Assembly (NCBI RefSeq): GCF_007994135.1
Contig: NZ_VLKF01000001.1
Coordinates: forward strand, 992,001-1,056,000
Source of the DNA: Modestobacter roseus
Lineage (GTDB): Bacteria > Actinomycetota > Actinomycetes > Mycobacteriales > Geodermatophilaceae
Reading direction: 5' to 3'
Length of the DNA stretch: 64,000 nucleotides
The notes below the pieces were generated by a model. The model was given only the letters and a program-made list of their open reading frames with translations. It was not told the origin of the DNA and searched no databases. A program made the position numbers and the translations under genes. Of this stretch, positions 16,099-61,727 are shown one piece after another; position 1 is the stretch's first letter, and the number at the start of each line of letters is the position of its first letter.

Positions 16099-16476
16099 GT
16101 GCAACCCGATCGCGCCGCCCGGCTGGCCGGGGCGCTGGTGCGTGACGGCGGAACCTGCATCTGGTGCGGGCGCGCCTTCACCGGCCTGGTCCGGCCCACC
16201 ACCGAGCACCTGGTGCCCCGGGTGAAGGGCGGCCCGTCGTGGGCGGAGAACGAGGTGGCTGCCTGCGGCCGGTGCAACGGCGCCCGCGGGCACGCCGGGC
16301 CGGTCGACTGGCTCGCCGAGTGCCGCCGGCGGGGCTGGGAGCCGGACGAGGAGCGGCTCGCCCGCGTCCTCGGCTCACTGGCCGCGGCGATCGCCCGTCG
16401 CGGCGGGCAGCGCCGGGCGCGGCCCTACCTGGACGCCCAGCTGCGCCGGCTGCGCCGTCGCGGGCTGGCCGCGTAA
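16099..16476 (+). CDS. HNH endonuclease domain protein
   Basis: A 125-aa protein built almost wholly of an HNH (beta-beta-alpha metal) nuclease fold. CIWCGRAF and CGRCNGARG are the two CxxC zinc knuckles, and TEHLVPRVKGGPSWAENEVA carries the catalytic His and the Asn. The start is GTG at 16099 (VQPDRAARL). Stand-alone HNH proteins of this form are common in actinobacteria and their targets are mostly unknown. No methyltransferase or restriction partner is adjacent. Confidence 0.82.
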   Translation: MQPDRAARLAGALVRDGGTCIWCGRAFTGLVRPTTEHLVPRVKGGPSWAENEVAACGRCNGARGHAGPVDWLAECRRRGWEPDEERLARVLGSLAAAIARRGGQRRARPYLDAQLRRLRRRGLAA

Positions 16477-16487
16477 CGTCCGCGGGC

Positions 16488-17042
16488 ATGGGTGAGGTCG
16501 TCGGCAGCGTCGGTCAGGTGTCGGTCTACCCGGTGAAGTCCCTCGGCGGCCGCACCGTGGCCGAGGCGGAGATCGACGCGGCCGGCCTGCGCGGTGACCG
16601 CGCCTGGGCGGTGGTCGACGCCGACACCGGTGAGCGCGTCACGGTGAAGACCACGCCGCAGCTGCGCGAGGTCGTCGCCACCGGGGACGCCGAGGCGGAC
16701 ACCGTCACGCTGACCGGGGTGCTGGGCCGGCCGGTGCGGCTGGCGGCGTCCGCGGCCGGTCCCCAGGTCGACGCCGCCGCGGTGCACCTGGTCTCCCGGG
16801 AGTCGATCGACCGCGCCGAGGCCGGTGACGTGCCCGAGGGCTGCTCGGCCGACGACCCGCGGGCCAACCTGCTGCTGCACCTGCCCGCCGGCGACGAGCG
16901 CAGCTGGGTGGGCCGGCGGGTGCGGGTCGGGGAGGCCGTGCTGGACGTCGTCCGCACCCCGAAGCACTGCCTCGGCGTGTACGCAGAGGTGGTCACGCCC
17001 GGGCGGGTCGCCGCGGGTGACCCGGTGGAGCTGCTGGGCTGA
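16488..17042 (+). CDS. MOSC domain protein
   Basis: A 184-aa protein with the MOSC beta-barrel N-terminal part (VSVYPVKSLGGRTVAEAEID, GLRGDRAWAVVDADTGERVT) and a MOSC core. MOSC proteins carry activated sulfur or bind molybdenum cofactor. The usual cofactor-binding Cys is probably the one in RTPKHCLGVYAEV. It is shorter than YcbX-type proteins and has no ferredoxin domain. The ATG at 16488 follows the HNH stop by 11 bases. Confidence 0.8.
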   Translation: MGEVVGSVGQVSVYPVKSLGGRTVAEAEIDAAGLRGDRAWAVVDADTGERVTVKTTPQLREVVATGDAEADTVTLTGVLGRPVRLAASAAGPQVDAAAVHLVSRESIDRAEAGDVPEGCSADDPRANLLLHLPAGDERSWVGRRVRVGEAVLDVVRTPKHCLGVYAEVVTPGRVAAGDPVELLG

Positions 17043-42846: not shown

Positions 42847-44628
42847 GTGCTCCGCACCCACGACGCCGGAACGCTGCGCGCCTCCGACGCCGGCTCCACG
42901 GTCACCCTCGCCGGCTGGGTCGCCCGCCGCCGCGACCACGGCGGGGTCGTCTTCCTCGACCTGCGCGACTCCTCCGGCTACGCCCAGGTCGTCGTCCGCG
43001 AGGAGGAGGCGCACGCCCTGCGCAACGAGTACTGCGTGCTGGTGACCGGTCAGGTGCAGGCGCGCCCGGCCGGCAACGAGAACCCCGAGCTGCCCACCGG
43101 TGCCATCGAGGTGGTCGCGTCCACGCTGGAGGTGCTGTCGGCCTCGGCGCCGCTGCCGTTCCCGATCGAGACCGCGCAGGCCGCCGGGGACGACGTCCGG
43201 TACAAGTACCGCTACCTCGACCTGCGCCGGCAGGGCCCGGCTGCGGCGCTGCGGCTGCGCAGCGAGATCAACAGGATCGCCCGGAACGTGATGGCCGAGA
43301 AGGGCTTCGTCGAGGTCGAGACCCCGTCGCTGACCCGCTCCACCCCCGAGGGCGCCCGCGACTTCGTCGTCCCGGTGCGGTTGCAGCCCGGGCACTGGTA
43401 CGCCCTGCCGCAGTCGCCACAGCTGTTCAAGCAGCTGCTGATGATCGGTGGGCTGGAGCGGTACTACCAGATCGCCCGCGCCTTCCGAGACGAGGACTTC
43501 CGCGCCGACCGCCAGCCGGAGTTCACCCAGCTGGACTTCGAGATGAGCTTCGTCGACCGGGACGACGTGCTGGCCGTCGCCGAGGACGTCATCCGGGCGC
43601 TGTGGTCGCAGCTGGCGGCCTACGAGCTGCCCGCCATCCCGCGGATGACCTACCGCGAGGCGATGGACCGGTTCGGCTCCGACAAGCCCGACCTGCGGTT
43701 CGGCGTCGAGCTGACCGAGCTGACGTCGTACTTCGCCGACACCCCGTTCCGGGTGTTCCAGGCGCCCTACGTCGGCGCGATCGTGATGCCCGGCGGCGGC
43801 TCACAGCCGCGGCGGGCGTTCGACGCGTGGCAGGACTGGGCCCGTTCCCGCGGCGCCAAGGGCCTGGCCTACGTCACCATCGCCGAGGACGGCACCCTCG
43901 GTGGCCCGGTCGCGAAGAACATCTCCGAGGCCGAGCGGGCCGGGCTGGTCGAGGCCGTCGGCGCCGAGCCCGGTGACTGCGTCTTCTTCGCCGCCGGGGC
44001 CCGCCGCGGGGCGCAGGAGCTGCTGGGCGCCGCGCGCAACGAGGTGGCCAGGCGCCTCGAGCTGATCGAGCCGGGCTCGTGGTCGTTCCTGTTCGTCGTG
44101 GACTTCCCGATGTTCGAGGAGACCGAGGACGGCGACTGGACCTTCATGCACCACCCGTTCACCTCGCCCACCCCGGAGTTCCGCGACTCCTTCGAGGCCG
44201 ACAAGGGCGCGGCGCTGTCGGACGCCTACGACCTGGTGTGCAACGGCAACGAGCTGATGAGCGGCTCGGTCCGCATCGCCGACGCGGCGCTGCAGGAGCG
44301 GGTGTTCGAGGCGATCGGCATGTCGACGGAGGAGGCCCGCGAGCGGTTCGGCTTCTTCCTGGAGGCCTTCGACTACGGCCCGCCGCCACACGCCGGTGCC
44401 GCGATCGGCTGGGACCGGCTCACCGCGCTGCTGGCCGGGGTGGACTCCATCCGCGAGGTCATCGCCTTCCCGAAGACCGGCGCCGGCTACGACCCGCTGA
44501 CCGGCGCGCCGACGCCGATCACCGCGGCGCAGCGCACGGAGGCCGGCATCGACGTCGACCCCGACGCCGAGCCCGCCCCCGGCGAGCCGGGCGCGCCCGG
44601 CCCGAGCGACCCGTCGAAGAAGGCCTGA
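42847..44628 (+). CDS. aspS: Aspartyl-tRNA synthetase
   Basis: Class IIb synthetase, 593 aa, bacterial type with GAD insertion. The N-terminal OB fold ([20 protein letters not shown]) binds the anticodon. The core has [70 protein letters not shown] and [20 protein letters not shown]. The C-terminal 35 residues are acidic and Pro-rich. In many actinobacteria it also charges tRNA-Asn for later amidation; that cannot be told here. A GTG start at 42847 follows a 50-base gap. Confidence 0.96.
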
Positions 44629-44648
44629 CCCCTCGCCCTTCCCGGTTG

Positions 44649-44718
44649 TTGATCATGGGCGTCTTGCCCGGTGCCGCGCCGTCTCCCGGCGCGCCACTGG
44701 CAAGGCGCCCATGATCAA
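44649..44718. repeat. Palindromic element A, right end of aspS region
   Basis: The 20-base arms TTGATCATGGGCGTCTTGCC (44649-44668) and its complement (44699-44718) differ at one G-T position. The inside also pairs (GTG/CAC, GCGCC/GGCGC), so the whole 70 bases can fold as one hairpin. The stop codon of the minus-strand DUF559-like gene (44715-44717) lies inside the right arm. It sits between converging genes, so it may also end transcription. Confidence 0.9.
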
Positions 44719-45638
44719 TTCGGGGGCGGTCGCCAGCCGCGGCTGACCAACGCCCGGCGGGTCCGCTCGACCACGGTGCGCGGCCCGGTCAGGTGGTGGT
44801 CGGCGAACCTCAGCACCAGCCACCCGTCGAGCGCGGTCAGGGAGTAGCGGTCGACGTCACGGCGGAACTGCTCGGGCTCGGCGTGCTGCCGTCCCTCGTA
44901 CTCCAGCGCGATCTTCCAGTCGCGGTAACCGAGGTCGCCGTGCACGACCACACGGTCCCAGCGGTCGACCACGGCGACCTGGGGTTCCGGGTCAGGCAGG
45001 TCGCTGTCCACGAGCCAGAACCGCACCAGGCTCTCGGGCCGGGACATGGCCTCCCGACACAGCAGTGGAGCGCAGGCGCGGGCCCGGACGACACCGCGGA
45101 CCCGGCCCGCACGGGCCAGACGCTCGGCCAGTCGGTCGGGGTCGAGACGGTCCCGGCGGTACAGCGCATCACCGACGGCCACCAGCTCGGCCGGGGGCAG
45201 GCTCGCGGCCAGGTCGAGGAACGTCTGCGCACCGGACGTGACGCGGACGCCGTCGACCTCCGTCACGTCCTCGTCCGCCATGCAGCGCTCGTGGCGGACC
45301 AGCTGGGGCCGTGCGGGCACGACCACGCCCGACGGGACCACGACCGTCAGCCGGGACGGCTGGGCCAGGGGAGCGCCGAGCAGGACTGCCGCCGTCGAGC
45401 CACCGAAGACGGCGCCGGTCGGCAGCACCTGCGCCCACGCCCTGCAGAGCTCACGCAGCGAGGGCTCAGCAGCGCAGGAGAGGTAGAGCCCGTGCCCGAG
45501 ACGGCGGCCGTCGCGTTCCACCTGCCGTCGGCTCAGGCCCGCGGCGCGTGCGCCCGCCCACGTGTAGCTGCCGTCCAGTCCGACGTCGTCCACGACGCTG
45601 ACCCTCACGGCCGGGGCGGCCGCGGACGAGGTGTCCAC
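44715..45638 (-). CDS. DUF559/AbiEi-like protein with Vsr-type nuclease fold
   Basis: A 307-aa protein. The N-terminal part (about 20-200) resembles the AbiEi-type antitoxin/winged-helix region: GLSRRQVERDGRRLGHGLYL, GSTAAVLLGAPL and TSGAQTFLDLAASLPPAELV. The C-terminal part (about 225-300) looks like a DUF559 or very-short-patch-repair nuclease fold: GDLGYRDWKIALEYEGRQHA, then EQFRRDVDRYSLTALDGWLV and LRFADHHL. The Asp/Glu...Glu pattern could bind metal, but the catalytic set is not proven. The start is taken as the GTG at 45638. No toxin partner is next to it. Palindromes A and B bracket it, which suggests it came in as a unit. Confidence 0.75.
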   Translation of the reverse strand: MDTSSAAAPAVRVSVVDDVGLDGSYTWAGARAAGLSRRQVERDGRRLGHGLYLSCAAEPSLRELCRAWAQVLPTGAVFGGSTAAVLLGAPLAQPSRLTVVVPSGVVVPARPQLVRHERCMADEDVTEVDGVRVTSGAQTFLDLAASLPPAELVAVGDALYRRDRLDPDRLAERLARAGRVRGVVRARACAPLLCREAMSRPESLVRFWLVDSDLPDPEPQVAVVDRWDRVVVHGDLGYRDWKIALEYEGRQHAEPEQFRRDVDRYSLTALDGWLVLRFADHHLTGPRTVVERTRRALVSRGWRPPPN

Positions 45639-45696
45639 GGCTTCTGTGGACAGCCCGCTGGCTGTGGATGCAGTGGCTGTAACGACTGCGGGATTC

Positions 45697-45768
45697 GTTG
45701 ATCATGGGCGATCCGGCCGGGGACACGCCCTCCGGCGGCGTGTCATCGGCAAGACGCCCATGATCAAC
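45697..45768. repeat. Palindromic element B, upstream of DUF559-like gene
   Basis: Outer arms GTTGATCATGGGCG (45697-45710) and its complement (45755-45768) are the same sequence as element A. The right arm also keeps GGCAAGACGCCC. The inside differs from A but still pairs (GACACGCC/GGCGTGTC, GCCG/CGGC). So the fold is kept while the inner sequence has changed. Confidence 0.9.
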
Positions 45769-45770
45769 AC

Positions 45771-45806
45771 GGGGCGGGGCGGGGCGGGGCGGGGCGGGCG
45801 GGAGGG
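45771..45806 (+). repeat. GGGGC microsatellite, potential G-quadruplex
   Basis: Five tandem GGGGC units followed by GGGCGGGAGGG lie three bases after palindrome B and four bases before the stop of the aldo/keto reductase on the other strand. Seven G runs with one-base loops are a strong G-quadruplex pattern. Confidence 0.8.
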
Positions 45807-45809
45807 CGG

Positions 45810-46670
45810 TCAGCCGGCGGAGTCGAGGCGGGCGAGCTGGTCGGGGCTGAGCTGCAGGTCCGCGGCCGCAGCGGAGTTGGTGATCGACTCGGCGCGGGAG
45901 GCGCCGGGGATGGGCACGACGACGTCGGCCTGCGCCAGGTGCCAGGCGAGCGCAACCTGGAACACCGAGACCCCCAGCTCGTCGGCCACGGCGGCGAACG
46001 CGCCGGCGGTCGAGCCGAGCGACTTCGCCGAGCCCACCCCGCCGAACGGGCTCCACGGGATGAACGCCACCCCCAGCTCCGCGCAGTGCGCCAGCTCGCC
46101 GGCCGAGGAGCGCCAGCCGGGGGAGAACTGGTTCTGCACGCTCACCAGTGCCGGGCCGACGATCTGTCGGGCGCTGTCGATCTGGGCGACGTCGGCGTTG
46201 GAGATCCCGGCCAGCTGCACCAGCCCGTCGTCGACGAGCGAGCGCAGCGCACCCATCGACTCCTCCCACGGCACCGCCGGGTCGGGCCGGTGGAACTGGT
46301 ACAGCCCGATCGCCTCGACGCCCAGCCGGCGCAGCGAGGCCTCGCAGGCCCGGCGCAGGTAGGACGGCGACCCGTCCAGCTCCCAGTCGGCGCCGCGCCG
46401 GGTGTGTCCGCCCTTGGTGGCGACCAGCACGTCGTCGGAAGAGCCGGCCGAGCGCAGCGCCCGGGCGACCAGCTCCTCGTTGTGGCCGAACTCCGCCTCG
46501 TCGCGGGCGTAGGCGTCCGCGGTGTCGATCAGCGTCACGCCGGCGTCGAGCGCCGCGTGCACCACCGCCTCCGCGTCGGCCGGGGACGGGCGGTCGTCCT
46601 TGGTGGACAGGGGCATCGCCCCGAGCCCGATGGCGCTGACGGTGCGGTCGCCGATGCGTCGCTGCTGCAT
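45810..46670 (-). CDS. Aldo/keto reductase
   Basis: A 286-aa AKR-family oxidoreductase. Marks are [34 protein letters not shown] (Asp, Tyr), [16 protein letters not shown] (Lys), [20 protein letters not shown] (His) and the cofactor loop [20 protein letters not shown]. The ATG at 46670 was chosen; upstream in-frame sequence is antisense to rarA. It is 37% of the way to no clear subfamily, so only the fold is assigned. It is divergent from rarA across 34 bases. Confidence 0.88.
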
Positions 46671-46704
46671 GGGCCTGTCGTGCCCCGCGGGTAGCGTCGC
46701 AACC

Positions 46705-48093
46705 GTGAGTTCGCTGTTCGACCCCGCCCCCGACGAGGACGGCGCCGCGCCCGTCGACCCGGGTGCGCCGCTGGCGGTCCGCATGCGGCCCCGCTCGCTG
46801 GACGAGGTCGTCGGGCAGTCCCACCTCCTCGGCCCCCGGGCGCCCCTGCGCCGGCTGGTCGAGGCCGACGAACCGATGTCCCTGGTGCTCTACGGCCCGC
46901 CCGGCACCGGCAAGACCACGCTGGCGCACGTGATCAGCCTGGCCACCAAGCGCCAGTTCGTGCAGCTGTCCGCGCTGGACTCCGGGGTCAAGGAGGTCCG
47001 CGCCGTCATCAGCTCGGCCAAGCGCGAGCTGACCATGGCCGGCCGGCGCACCGTGCTGTTCATCGACGAGGTGCACCGCTTCTCCAAGACCCAGCAGGAC
47101 TCCCTGCTGTCCGCGGTGGAGGACCGGATCGTCAGCCTGATCGCGGCCACCACGGAGAACCCGTTCTTCTCCGTCGTCAGCCCGCTGCTGTCCCGCAGCC
47201 TGGTGCTCGCCCTGCAGCCGCTGGGCGACGACGACGTCCGCACGCTGCTGCGCCGGGCGCTGACCAGCGACCGGGGCCTGGACGGCGCGGTGACGCTGAG
47301 CGCCGAGGCCGAGGAGCACCTGGTGCGCATCGCCGGCGGCGACGGTCGCAAGGCGCTGACCGCGCTGGAGTCCGGGGCGGGGGCCGCGCTCGCCGCCGGC
47401 GCGACCGAGATCGACCTGCAGACGCTGGAGACCGCGGTGGCCCAGGCCGCGGTCCGCTACGACCGCGCCGGCGACATGCACTACGACGTCGCCAGCGCGC
47501 TGATCAAATCCATCCGCGGCTCCGACGTCGACGCCGCCATGCACTACCTGGCCCGGATGGTGGAGGCGGGGGAGGACCCCCGCTTCATCGCCCGCCGGCT
47601 GGTCATCTCCGCCAGCGAGGACATCGGCATGGCCGACCCCACCGCCTTGCAGACCGCGGTCGCCGCAGCCGAGGCGGTGGCCTTCATCGGCATGCCGGAG
47701 GGGCACTTCCCGCTGGCGCAGGCGGTCGCCCACCTGGCCACCGCCGCCAAGTCCAACGCGCTGACCGTGGCGATCGGGGAGTCCGTCGGTGACGTGCGCG
47801 CCGGGCTGGCCGGCCCGGTGCCACCGGGCCTGCGCGACGCGCACTACGCGGGGGCGAAGAAGCTCGGCCACGGGAAGACCTACTCCTACCCGCACGACCA
47901 CCCCGACGGCGTCGTGCCGCAGCAGTACCCGCCCGACGCCCTGGTGGGCCGCGACTACTACCGGCCGACCGGCCGCGGCGTGGAGGCACAGATCGGCGTC
48001 CGGCTGGCCAAGCTGCGGGCGATCGTCAGGCGACCGCTGCGGGAGCATCGCAGCGAGGGACGAGCGAGGAGCGGACCGGAGCAGGGCGCCTGA
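46705..48093 (+). CDS. rarA: Replication-associated recombination ATPase RarA (MgsA)
   Basis: AAA+ clamp-loader-like ATPase of 462 aa that acts at stalled forks. Walker A is [20 protein letters not shown], Walker [21 protein letters not shown], sensor 1 [20 protein letters not shown]. The tetramerisation domain has [40 protein letters not shown] and [20 protein letters not shown]. The GTG start at 46705 was chosen ([13 protein letters not shown]). The last 20 residues ([17 protein letters not shown]) come from a short repeat also found between ruvA and ruvB. Confidence 0.95.
48043..48077 (+). repeat. Dispersed short GC-rich repeat, copy 2
   Basis: GAGCATCGCAGCGAG plus CGAGCGAGGAGCGGA, as at 28148-28187. 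Here it forms the end of the rarA coding sequence and so adds a basic tail to the protein. Confidence 0.65.
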
Positions 48094-61400: not shown

Positions 61401-61460
61401 CAGCACGGAACGCCCACGGCCCACTCTGCGCGCAGAGTGGGCCGTGGGCGTTCCGTGCTG
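61401..61460. repeat. Perfect 60-bp palindrome
   Basis: The 30-base arms starting CAGCACGGAACGCCCACGGC (61401-61430) and their exact complement (61431-61460) have no loop base and no mismatch. The palindrome starts 5 bases after the nusB stop. It can act as a terminator, but a perfect 30-bp arm is far more than termination needs. Confidence 0.95.
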
Positions 61461-61682: not shown

Positions 61683-61727
61683 CGCACGAGGGGCCCCGTC
61701 CGCGGTGCGGACGGGGCCCCTCGTGCG
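61683..61727. terminator. Bidirectional hairpin terminator before bldD end
   Basis: A 20-bp stem (CGCACGAGGGGCCCCGTCCG and its complement) with a 5-base loop lies 9 bases beyond the bldD stop. Confidence 0.85.

Follow-up and report, generated by a model that had tools for sequence, protein, structure and literature searches.

A nuclease-like gene bracketed by matching palindromes in Modestobacter roseus

Background

REP elements and their REP-associated tyrosine transposases (RAYT/TnpA-REP, together 'REPtrons') are the closest described parallel to the locus presented here. In these systems a gene is flanked by two palindromes, cognate palindromes of 20-50 bp are dispersed in extragenic positions, gene and palindrome co-diversify, and copy number tracks the presence of the cognate gene (PMC2817692, PMC8266576). 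Three other families are relevant to the protein. AbiE type IV toxin-antitoxin systems are bicistronic AbiEi-AbiEii operons, and AbiEi and Rv2827c bind 23-bp inverted repeats in their promoters (PMC7319586). Free-standing homing endonucleases of the EDxHD family combine a nuclease with a DNA-binding part, and one of them, I-Bth0305I, dimerises on a target of nearly 60 bp (PMC3943268). The EDxHD family is akin to Vsr. Finally, DUF559, MTES_1575 and Vsr-like proteins share a restriction-endonuclease fold.

We analysed a window of 64,000 nucleotides (positions 992001-1056000 of contig NZ_VLKF01000001.1, assembly GCF_007994135.1) from the 4.5-Mb genome of Modestobacter roseus, family Geodermatophilaceae. 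A first-pass annotation, made from sequence alone, had noticed a DUF559/AbiEi-like gene between two related palindromes and proposed that it could be a nuclease gene spread with palindromic ends, perhaps by a REP-type mechanism. Below, G000 is this genome, other G numbers are the genomes compared with it and L numbers are individual loci; palindromes standing alone are called solos.

Results and discussion

Two palindromes and the gene between them

What the annotation had observed is confirmed: the two palindromes are there. Palindrome A (44648-44719) begins 19 nt after the stop of aspS, encoding aspartate--tRNA ligase (42847-44628, +), and palindrome B (45697-45768) ends 41 nt before the stop of a gene for an aldo/keto-type oxidoreductase (45810-46784, -; start codon uncertain). 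The arms, which we call type A (TTGATCATGGGCGTCTTGCC), carry TTGATCATGGGCG at all four ends (44649, 44706, 45698 and 45755), with five matches within 2 mismatches in the window against 0.6 expected by chance. The 20-base version of the arm is A's left arm and B's right arm, in a 22-nt perfect inverted repeat, and each palindrome folds far better than shuffled sequences (z of -10.2 and -7.6). Between them lies a gene of 307 aa (45638-44715, -) with a GTG start, as called, 58 nt from palindrome B. Its TGA stop codon (44715-44717, -) is supplied by the arm of palindrome A (TTGATCAT). A is thus downstream of the gene and B upstream. Elsewhere in the window, two very strong, GC-rich inverted repeats about 220 bp apart (61401-61460 and 61683-61727, arm scores 30 and 21) are possibly terminators or another palindrome family.

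One detail of the annotation, that structure is kept by compensating change, is not clearly supported. In 24 type-A copies the 11 outermost pairs hardly vary in sequence, and pairs with a change on both sides are as common as after shuffling (6 against 5.4, a value reached by 235 of 500 shuffles). Two other measures are only weakly raised: cells with a change on both sides (12 against 7.9, 33 of 500 shuffles) and a covariation score (0.079 against 0.064, 32 of 500). An ungapped count on 19 copies gave fewer inner pairs than shuffled partners (163 against 192). No Rfam family matched at E<=1 in 44000-46500, and neither a classical U-tailed terminator nor a sigma-70 promoter was found at 44500-46000.

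The palindrome is a genome-wide family

A covariance model built from nine copies found nine strong elements in the genome (each matched on both strands, 18 matches) and one weak one (two matches); the strong elements are the pair described above and seven solos. Of 59 genomes searched with the model, 33 have matches. In the part of these matches inspected by eye, elements closer than 2 kb stand in at least seven genomes (G000, G006, G007, G013, G015, G025 and G030; G006 is a congener matching Modestobacter altitudinis 1G4), and in each the intervening space holds a relative of this gene, split in two matches in G013. Of 19 type-A solos, 17 lie within 30 nt of the 3' end of a called gene and none lies inside one, although gene calling was crude here. 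Some solos are shared between species, since L002, L047 and L055 have the same neighbours.

Genes of this kind are usually bracketed

Relatives of the gene occur in 111 of 112 genomes of the family. A search of genome contigs with the single protein returned one locus only, in Modestobacter altitudinis. We examined 75 close relatives (48-100% identity, from 67 of the 112 genomes) and 24 paralogs (30-45% identity, from six genomes; of the 34 matches in the underlying search, four had no locus and are left out). A pair of similar palindromes within 500 nt on both sides was found for 52 of 75 close relatives and 14 of 24 paralogs, against 0 of 42 other genes in the window, 0 of 68 other genes in the same loci and 0 of 1445 random intervals; 23 close genes and 10 paralogs thus failed the test. 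The similarity threshold alone (0.6) is weak, since shuffled letters reach 0.57 on average; the force of the control is that other genes lack palindromes on both sides, a pair of any kind occurring in 1 of 110 genes and 1 of 1445 intervals. An alignment-free check with shared words of 16 or more gave 43 of 75 close relatives, 11 of 24 paralogs, 3 of 21 phylum-wide loci and 0 of 38 and 1 of 39 controls, whereas shared 12-mers proved useless (430 of 1000 random draws). The palindromes measure 51-94 bp as detected, with a median of 69. In the 52 loci with a pair, the stop codon overlaps the downstream palindrome in 38, and the upstream palindrome ends a median 84 nt before the start.

The bracket is not general across the phylum. 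Among 30 PF04480 loci, 27 had a called ORF (in five of these, L216, L217, L218, L222 and L223, it ran to a locus end, so that one flank was missing), and only L221 showed a clear pair. This DUF559 gene (G151, contig C1, about 412 kb) belongs to a far actinobacterial lineage and is bracketed by a near-perfect 48-50-nt palindrome pair (similarity 0.94). L228 shares short palindromes on both sides, and L234 a 31-nt inverted word of unclear kind. A search for plasmid and phage carriage gave two Arthrobacter records at 30-34% identity and no phage.

Gene and palindromes change together

Arms differ wholly between relatives, yet both flanks of a gene usually share a type. Paralogs carry arm pairs unlike type A, for example GGGCGGWAATGGCCATT (L140) or TTCTGCGATCTCGTGGC (L142), though L135, L144 and L151 keep GATCATG-like ends; the distant paralogs L140, L142, L148, L153, L156 and L158 are bracketed by their own palindrome pairs (short in L158). 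Among close relatives we distinguished eight types, A to H, by eye. On a tree of 66 of the 75 close proteins the types need 11 changes (least possible 7; shuffled mean 39.5). Nine loci with no clear or a mixed type, or a broken or badly called gene, were left out (L030, L044, L080, L083, L091, L094, L100, L106 and L121), and two proteins called too long (L115 and L117) were cut to their last 330 residues, L117 remaining a very long branch. Since types were assigned by eye, including 14 loci that did not pass the automatic pair test, the labelling could favour clustering. There are exceptions: L091 (G084) has a type-F palindrome upstream and a type-C palindrome downstream, and L074 (G114, contig C70) has type-A arms, with two tandem type-A palindromes about 100 bp apart behind the gene, like a small REP cluster, but its protein groups with type-B genes.

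The site between aspS and the oxidoreductase allows a direct comparison. In the 47 labelled loci with a readable oxidoreductase, arm types need 6 changes on the gene's tree (least possible 5) but 18 on the oxidoreductase's, while genus labels need 16 and 9, respectively. So gene and both palindromes are replaced together while the neighbour follows the species. In the 39 loci at this site that passed the pair test, and were therefore chosen for having a pair, similarity between the upstream and downstream copies of one gene is 0.794, against 0.646 between upstream copies of different types, and in 32 of 39 the upstream palindrome is more like its own downstream partner than like any upstream palindrome of another type. 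In REPtrons the flanking palindromes are always inverted; here, by eye, the core is inverted between the flanks in many type-C loci, but runs in the same direction in many loci of types B and F.

Solos follow the resident gene. The type-A 13-mer occurs 5-10 times in G000, G006, G007, G013, G015 and G114, which have a type-A bracket, and at most twice in the other 106 genomes, of which 61 had a close gene examined and none was seen with a type-A bracket, the count leaving out the close genes of the remaining 45. Without the hits at the bracket itself the six still have 3, 6, 6, 4, 6 and 6. G114 is of another genus and its gene sits at another site. The type-F 13-mer peaks in G024 (22), which has a type-F gene. 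However, G105 has five type-F 13-mers although its one examined gene is type B, and G053, a genome of another family, has about 38 palindromes related to types A/B while its only detected relative of the gene is 35% identical and has other arms.

Corresponding sites differ between relatives

We looked at 25 loci from 23 genomes for the aspS/oxidoreductase site, of which eight show aspS beside the oxidoreductase and bear on the question, two of them (G096 and G104) as occupied controls. G028 has a single palindrome and no detectable gene there, which could be either an uninterrupted target or a scar. G025 also has one palindrome and no detectable gene there, its genes being elsewhere; G004 keeps a gene remnant; G093 and G029 show neither; and G125 has no gene but a palindrome with other arms. 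Outside these eight, G076 keeps a remnant beside the oxidoreductase, without aspS. The unit occurs at up to seven further neighbourhoods: L065-L070 with L074; L045, L090, L092 and L107; L097 and L114; and L076, L112, L117 and L030 singly (L030 with one palindrome detected).

Solos vary likewise. L001 is missing from G007, G015 and G003, the three relatives where both flanks matched (of five searched), but these empty sites differ from the occupied one by more or less than the palindrome alone. At the L005 place G000 and G015 have type A, G006 a near-A, G003 a type-C-like palindrome (its gene is type C) and G013 a type F and a type A side by side, G007 not being comparable. A type-F and a type-A palindrome stand side by side at one intergenic place in G013 (L056, contig C42, around 16400-16570), as if two families used the same spot. 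At the L009 place G015 has a related palindrome and the other four are not comparable or carry another insert. No clean insertion boundary was obtained, and no target-site duplication was noticed by eye at the seven G000 solos, the flanks of relatives being too diverged for comparison.

An AbiEi-like protein with a putative nuclease domain

Residues 23-179 of the protein match AbiEi (PADLOC, 8e-14), the protein also matches Pfam AbiEi_1 (3.6e-6), and no AbiEii toxin gene stands beside it. The C-terminal part matches DUF559 at E<=0.01 in 21 of 27 aligned proteins and MTES_1575 in 2, the match of the window protein itself (0.0013) falling just below Pfam's cut-off. D235, E246, E248, G249, H252, D261 and R264 are invariant in the 27 proteins, and the putative nuclease motif D235 ... 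E246-x-E248-G-x-x-H252 (44883-44936, -) is as expected of PD-(D/E)XK enzymes, although four of 13 paralogs inspected lack the simple ExxGxxH motif. A structure model from two sequences reached a pLDDT of 34.6 and was discarded, and a profile search of the PDB gave no hit at E<=1; the nuclease fold is inferred from sequence alone. Nine pairs give dN/dS of 0.13-0.28, indicating purifying selection.

In the 52 loci that passed the pair test, the part that differs most between arm types is the N-terminal region (residues 14-62; 45453-45599, -), a putative DNA-binding domain whose winged-helix assignment is inferred from the AbiEi match. It is 63% identical within and 35% between types, compared with 69% and 55% for the middle and 73% and 67% for the DUF559 domain. 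Partial Mantel tests do not single out one domain, however: the middle, the nuclease domain and the N-terminal domain correlate about equally with arm similarity (r of 0.28, 0.21 and 0.22).

A unit carrying its own palindromes?

We consider it more likely than not, with moderate confidence, that the locus is a one-gene unit: an AbiEi-type DNA-binding protein with a DUF559 (PD-(D/E)XK, Vsr-like) nuclease domain, bracketed by two copies of its own cognate palindrome, with further single copies spread in the genome just behind gene ends. Our comparisons show that a matching pair is specific to this gene family among the genes tested, that gene and palindromes change type together at a fixed site, that genomes with a type-A bracket have type-A solos, and that solos and units are present or absent, or of different type, at corresponding places. 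The rest is inference from sequence: that the protein binds the two inverted arms as a dimer, as AbiEi does on inverted repeats, that it nicks or cuts there, and that repair of the break from another copy spreads palindromes and occasionally the whole unit. Arms of about 20 bp around a centre of about 30 nt fit a dimer site with nuclease domains meeting at the centre, where GACACGCC recurs. The upstream copy may also serve as the gene's operator and the downstream one as its terminator.

The interpretation in the first-pass annotation is partly supported. The arm is repeated across the genome, gene and palindromes behave as one unit that lies at other places in relatives, and G028 has one palindrome without the gene. 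On the other hand, solos are not known to lie next to other DUF559 genes, and their position at gene ends touches the annotation's own criterion for rejection, that copies sit only at transcript ends of unrelated genes. Movement is inferred from comparisons without clean insertion boundaries.

A REP-type mechanism fits the layout but not the enzyme. A search for Y1 transposases (PF01797, E<=0.001) found none in 14 of 14 genomes, while the same search was positive in 5 of 14 control genomes. No GTAG/GTRG head was seen by eye beside the type-A copies, palindromes are about 70 bp long, and this genome has nine strong copies rather than hundreds. The locus is not a member of the REP/RAYT class, though it may work alike. 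Compared with I-Bth0305I, the putative target is a true palindrome present on both sides and as solos, and the gene is not in an intron or phage gene; G028 offers one possible empty site. Compared with AbiE systems, the protein carries a C-terminal nuclease-like domain instead of having a toxin partner. For DUF559, MTES_1575 and Vsr-like proteins, no title or abstract opening describing a flanking palindrome pair turned up in literature searches on DUF559, DUF559 or AbiEi with palindromes, REP elements and endonucleases in Actinobacteria, RAYTs and REPINs, and palindromes in Geodermatophilaceae, which covered titles and abstract openings in an open-access collection without most subscription papers.

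Alternative explanations

Among alternatives, the one that survives best, though we think it unlikely, is that the palindromes are operators through which the AbiEi-like protein represses its own gene and perhaps a small regulon, type changes reflecting ordinary co-evolution of regulator and site without movement. The binding of AbiEi and Rv2827c to promoter repeats (PMC7319586), the position of the upstream palindrome and the fact that type follows the protein speak for it. It is less easily reconciled with a second copy at the stop codon, type-A solos lying behind genes, wholly different arms at the same site while the nuclease domain changes little, and a nuclease-type motif kept invariant. 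Slightly less likely still, the palindromes would be transcription terminators without a U tail that insulate the gene, match within a locus through gene conversion and travel with it by ordinary homologous exchange. They are strong hairpins just behind stop codons, often between convergent genes. However, no terminator-like site with a T run was found at 44500-46000, the other genes tested are not so bracketed, and site L001 lacks the palindrome in three relatives. Moreover, a terminator need not match its gene's protein, yet arm types track the protein and the genome's solos. Neither of these two readings is excluded, and both may be secondary uses.

We regard as very unlikely that the palindromes are REP or MITE elements moved in trans by an ordinary transposase elsewhere in the genome, with the DUF559 gene as a passenger. 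They are short dispersed extragenic palindromes, as REPs are (PMC8266576), but no Y1 transposase was found in a search that did not extend to DDE transposases, and a passenger would not explain why paralogs at 30-45% identity have their own arms or why type follows the protein. Least likely is a chromosomal defence or genome-maintenance nuclease that reads palindromes or hairpins, its own palindromes serving as recognition or control sites and its diversity driven by an arms race with phages, since, although PADLOC matches are AbiEi-type, types turn over at a fixed site and selection is purifying, there is no toxin partner within the bracket, PADLOC matches only the antitoxin-like part of the window protein, and solos at gene ends are unexplained.

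Implications

The evidence also leaves room for a more far-reaching reading, which we put forward tentatively: a new class of palindrome-spreading system in Actinobacteria, in which an AbiEi-type DNA-binding nuclease of the PD-(D/E)XK/Vsr kind would read and cut its own long palindrome as a dimer, repair would copy palindromes to new intergenic places and move the gene between them, and the AbiEi-like part would set specificity and be swapped with the arms. That would be a REP-like dispersal driven by hydrolytic cutting and repair instead of HUH strand transfer.

How short palindromes spread through bacterial genomes is, to our knowledge, partly understood only for REP/RAYT pairs. Even there, the dissemination mechanism is described as still to be elucidated (PMC8266576). 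Here a second, unrelated protein family presents the same genetic signature, in Actinobacteria where no Y1 transposase was found in the 14 genomes searched. The set of naturally matched protein/palindrome types, A to H as labelled by eye, allows direct specificity-swap experiments. For DUF559 genes, matched here only to unknown-function, antitoxin and restriction-enzyme-like models, it gives a concrete and testable partner: a specific DNA sequence for each gene.
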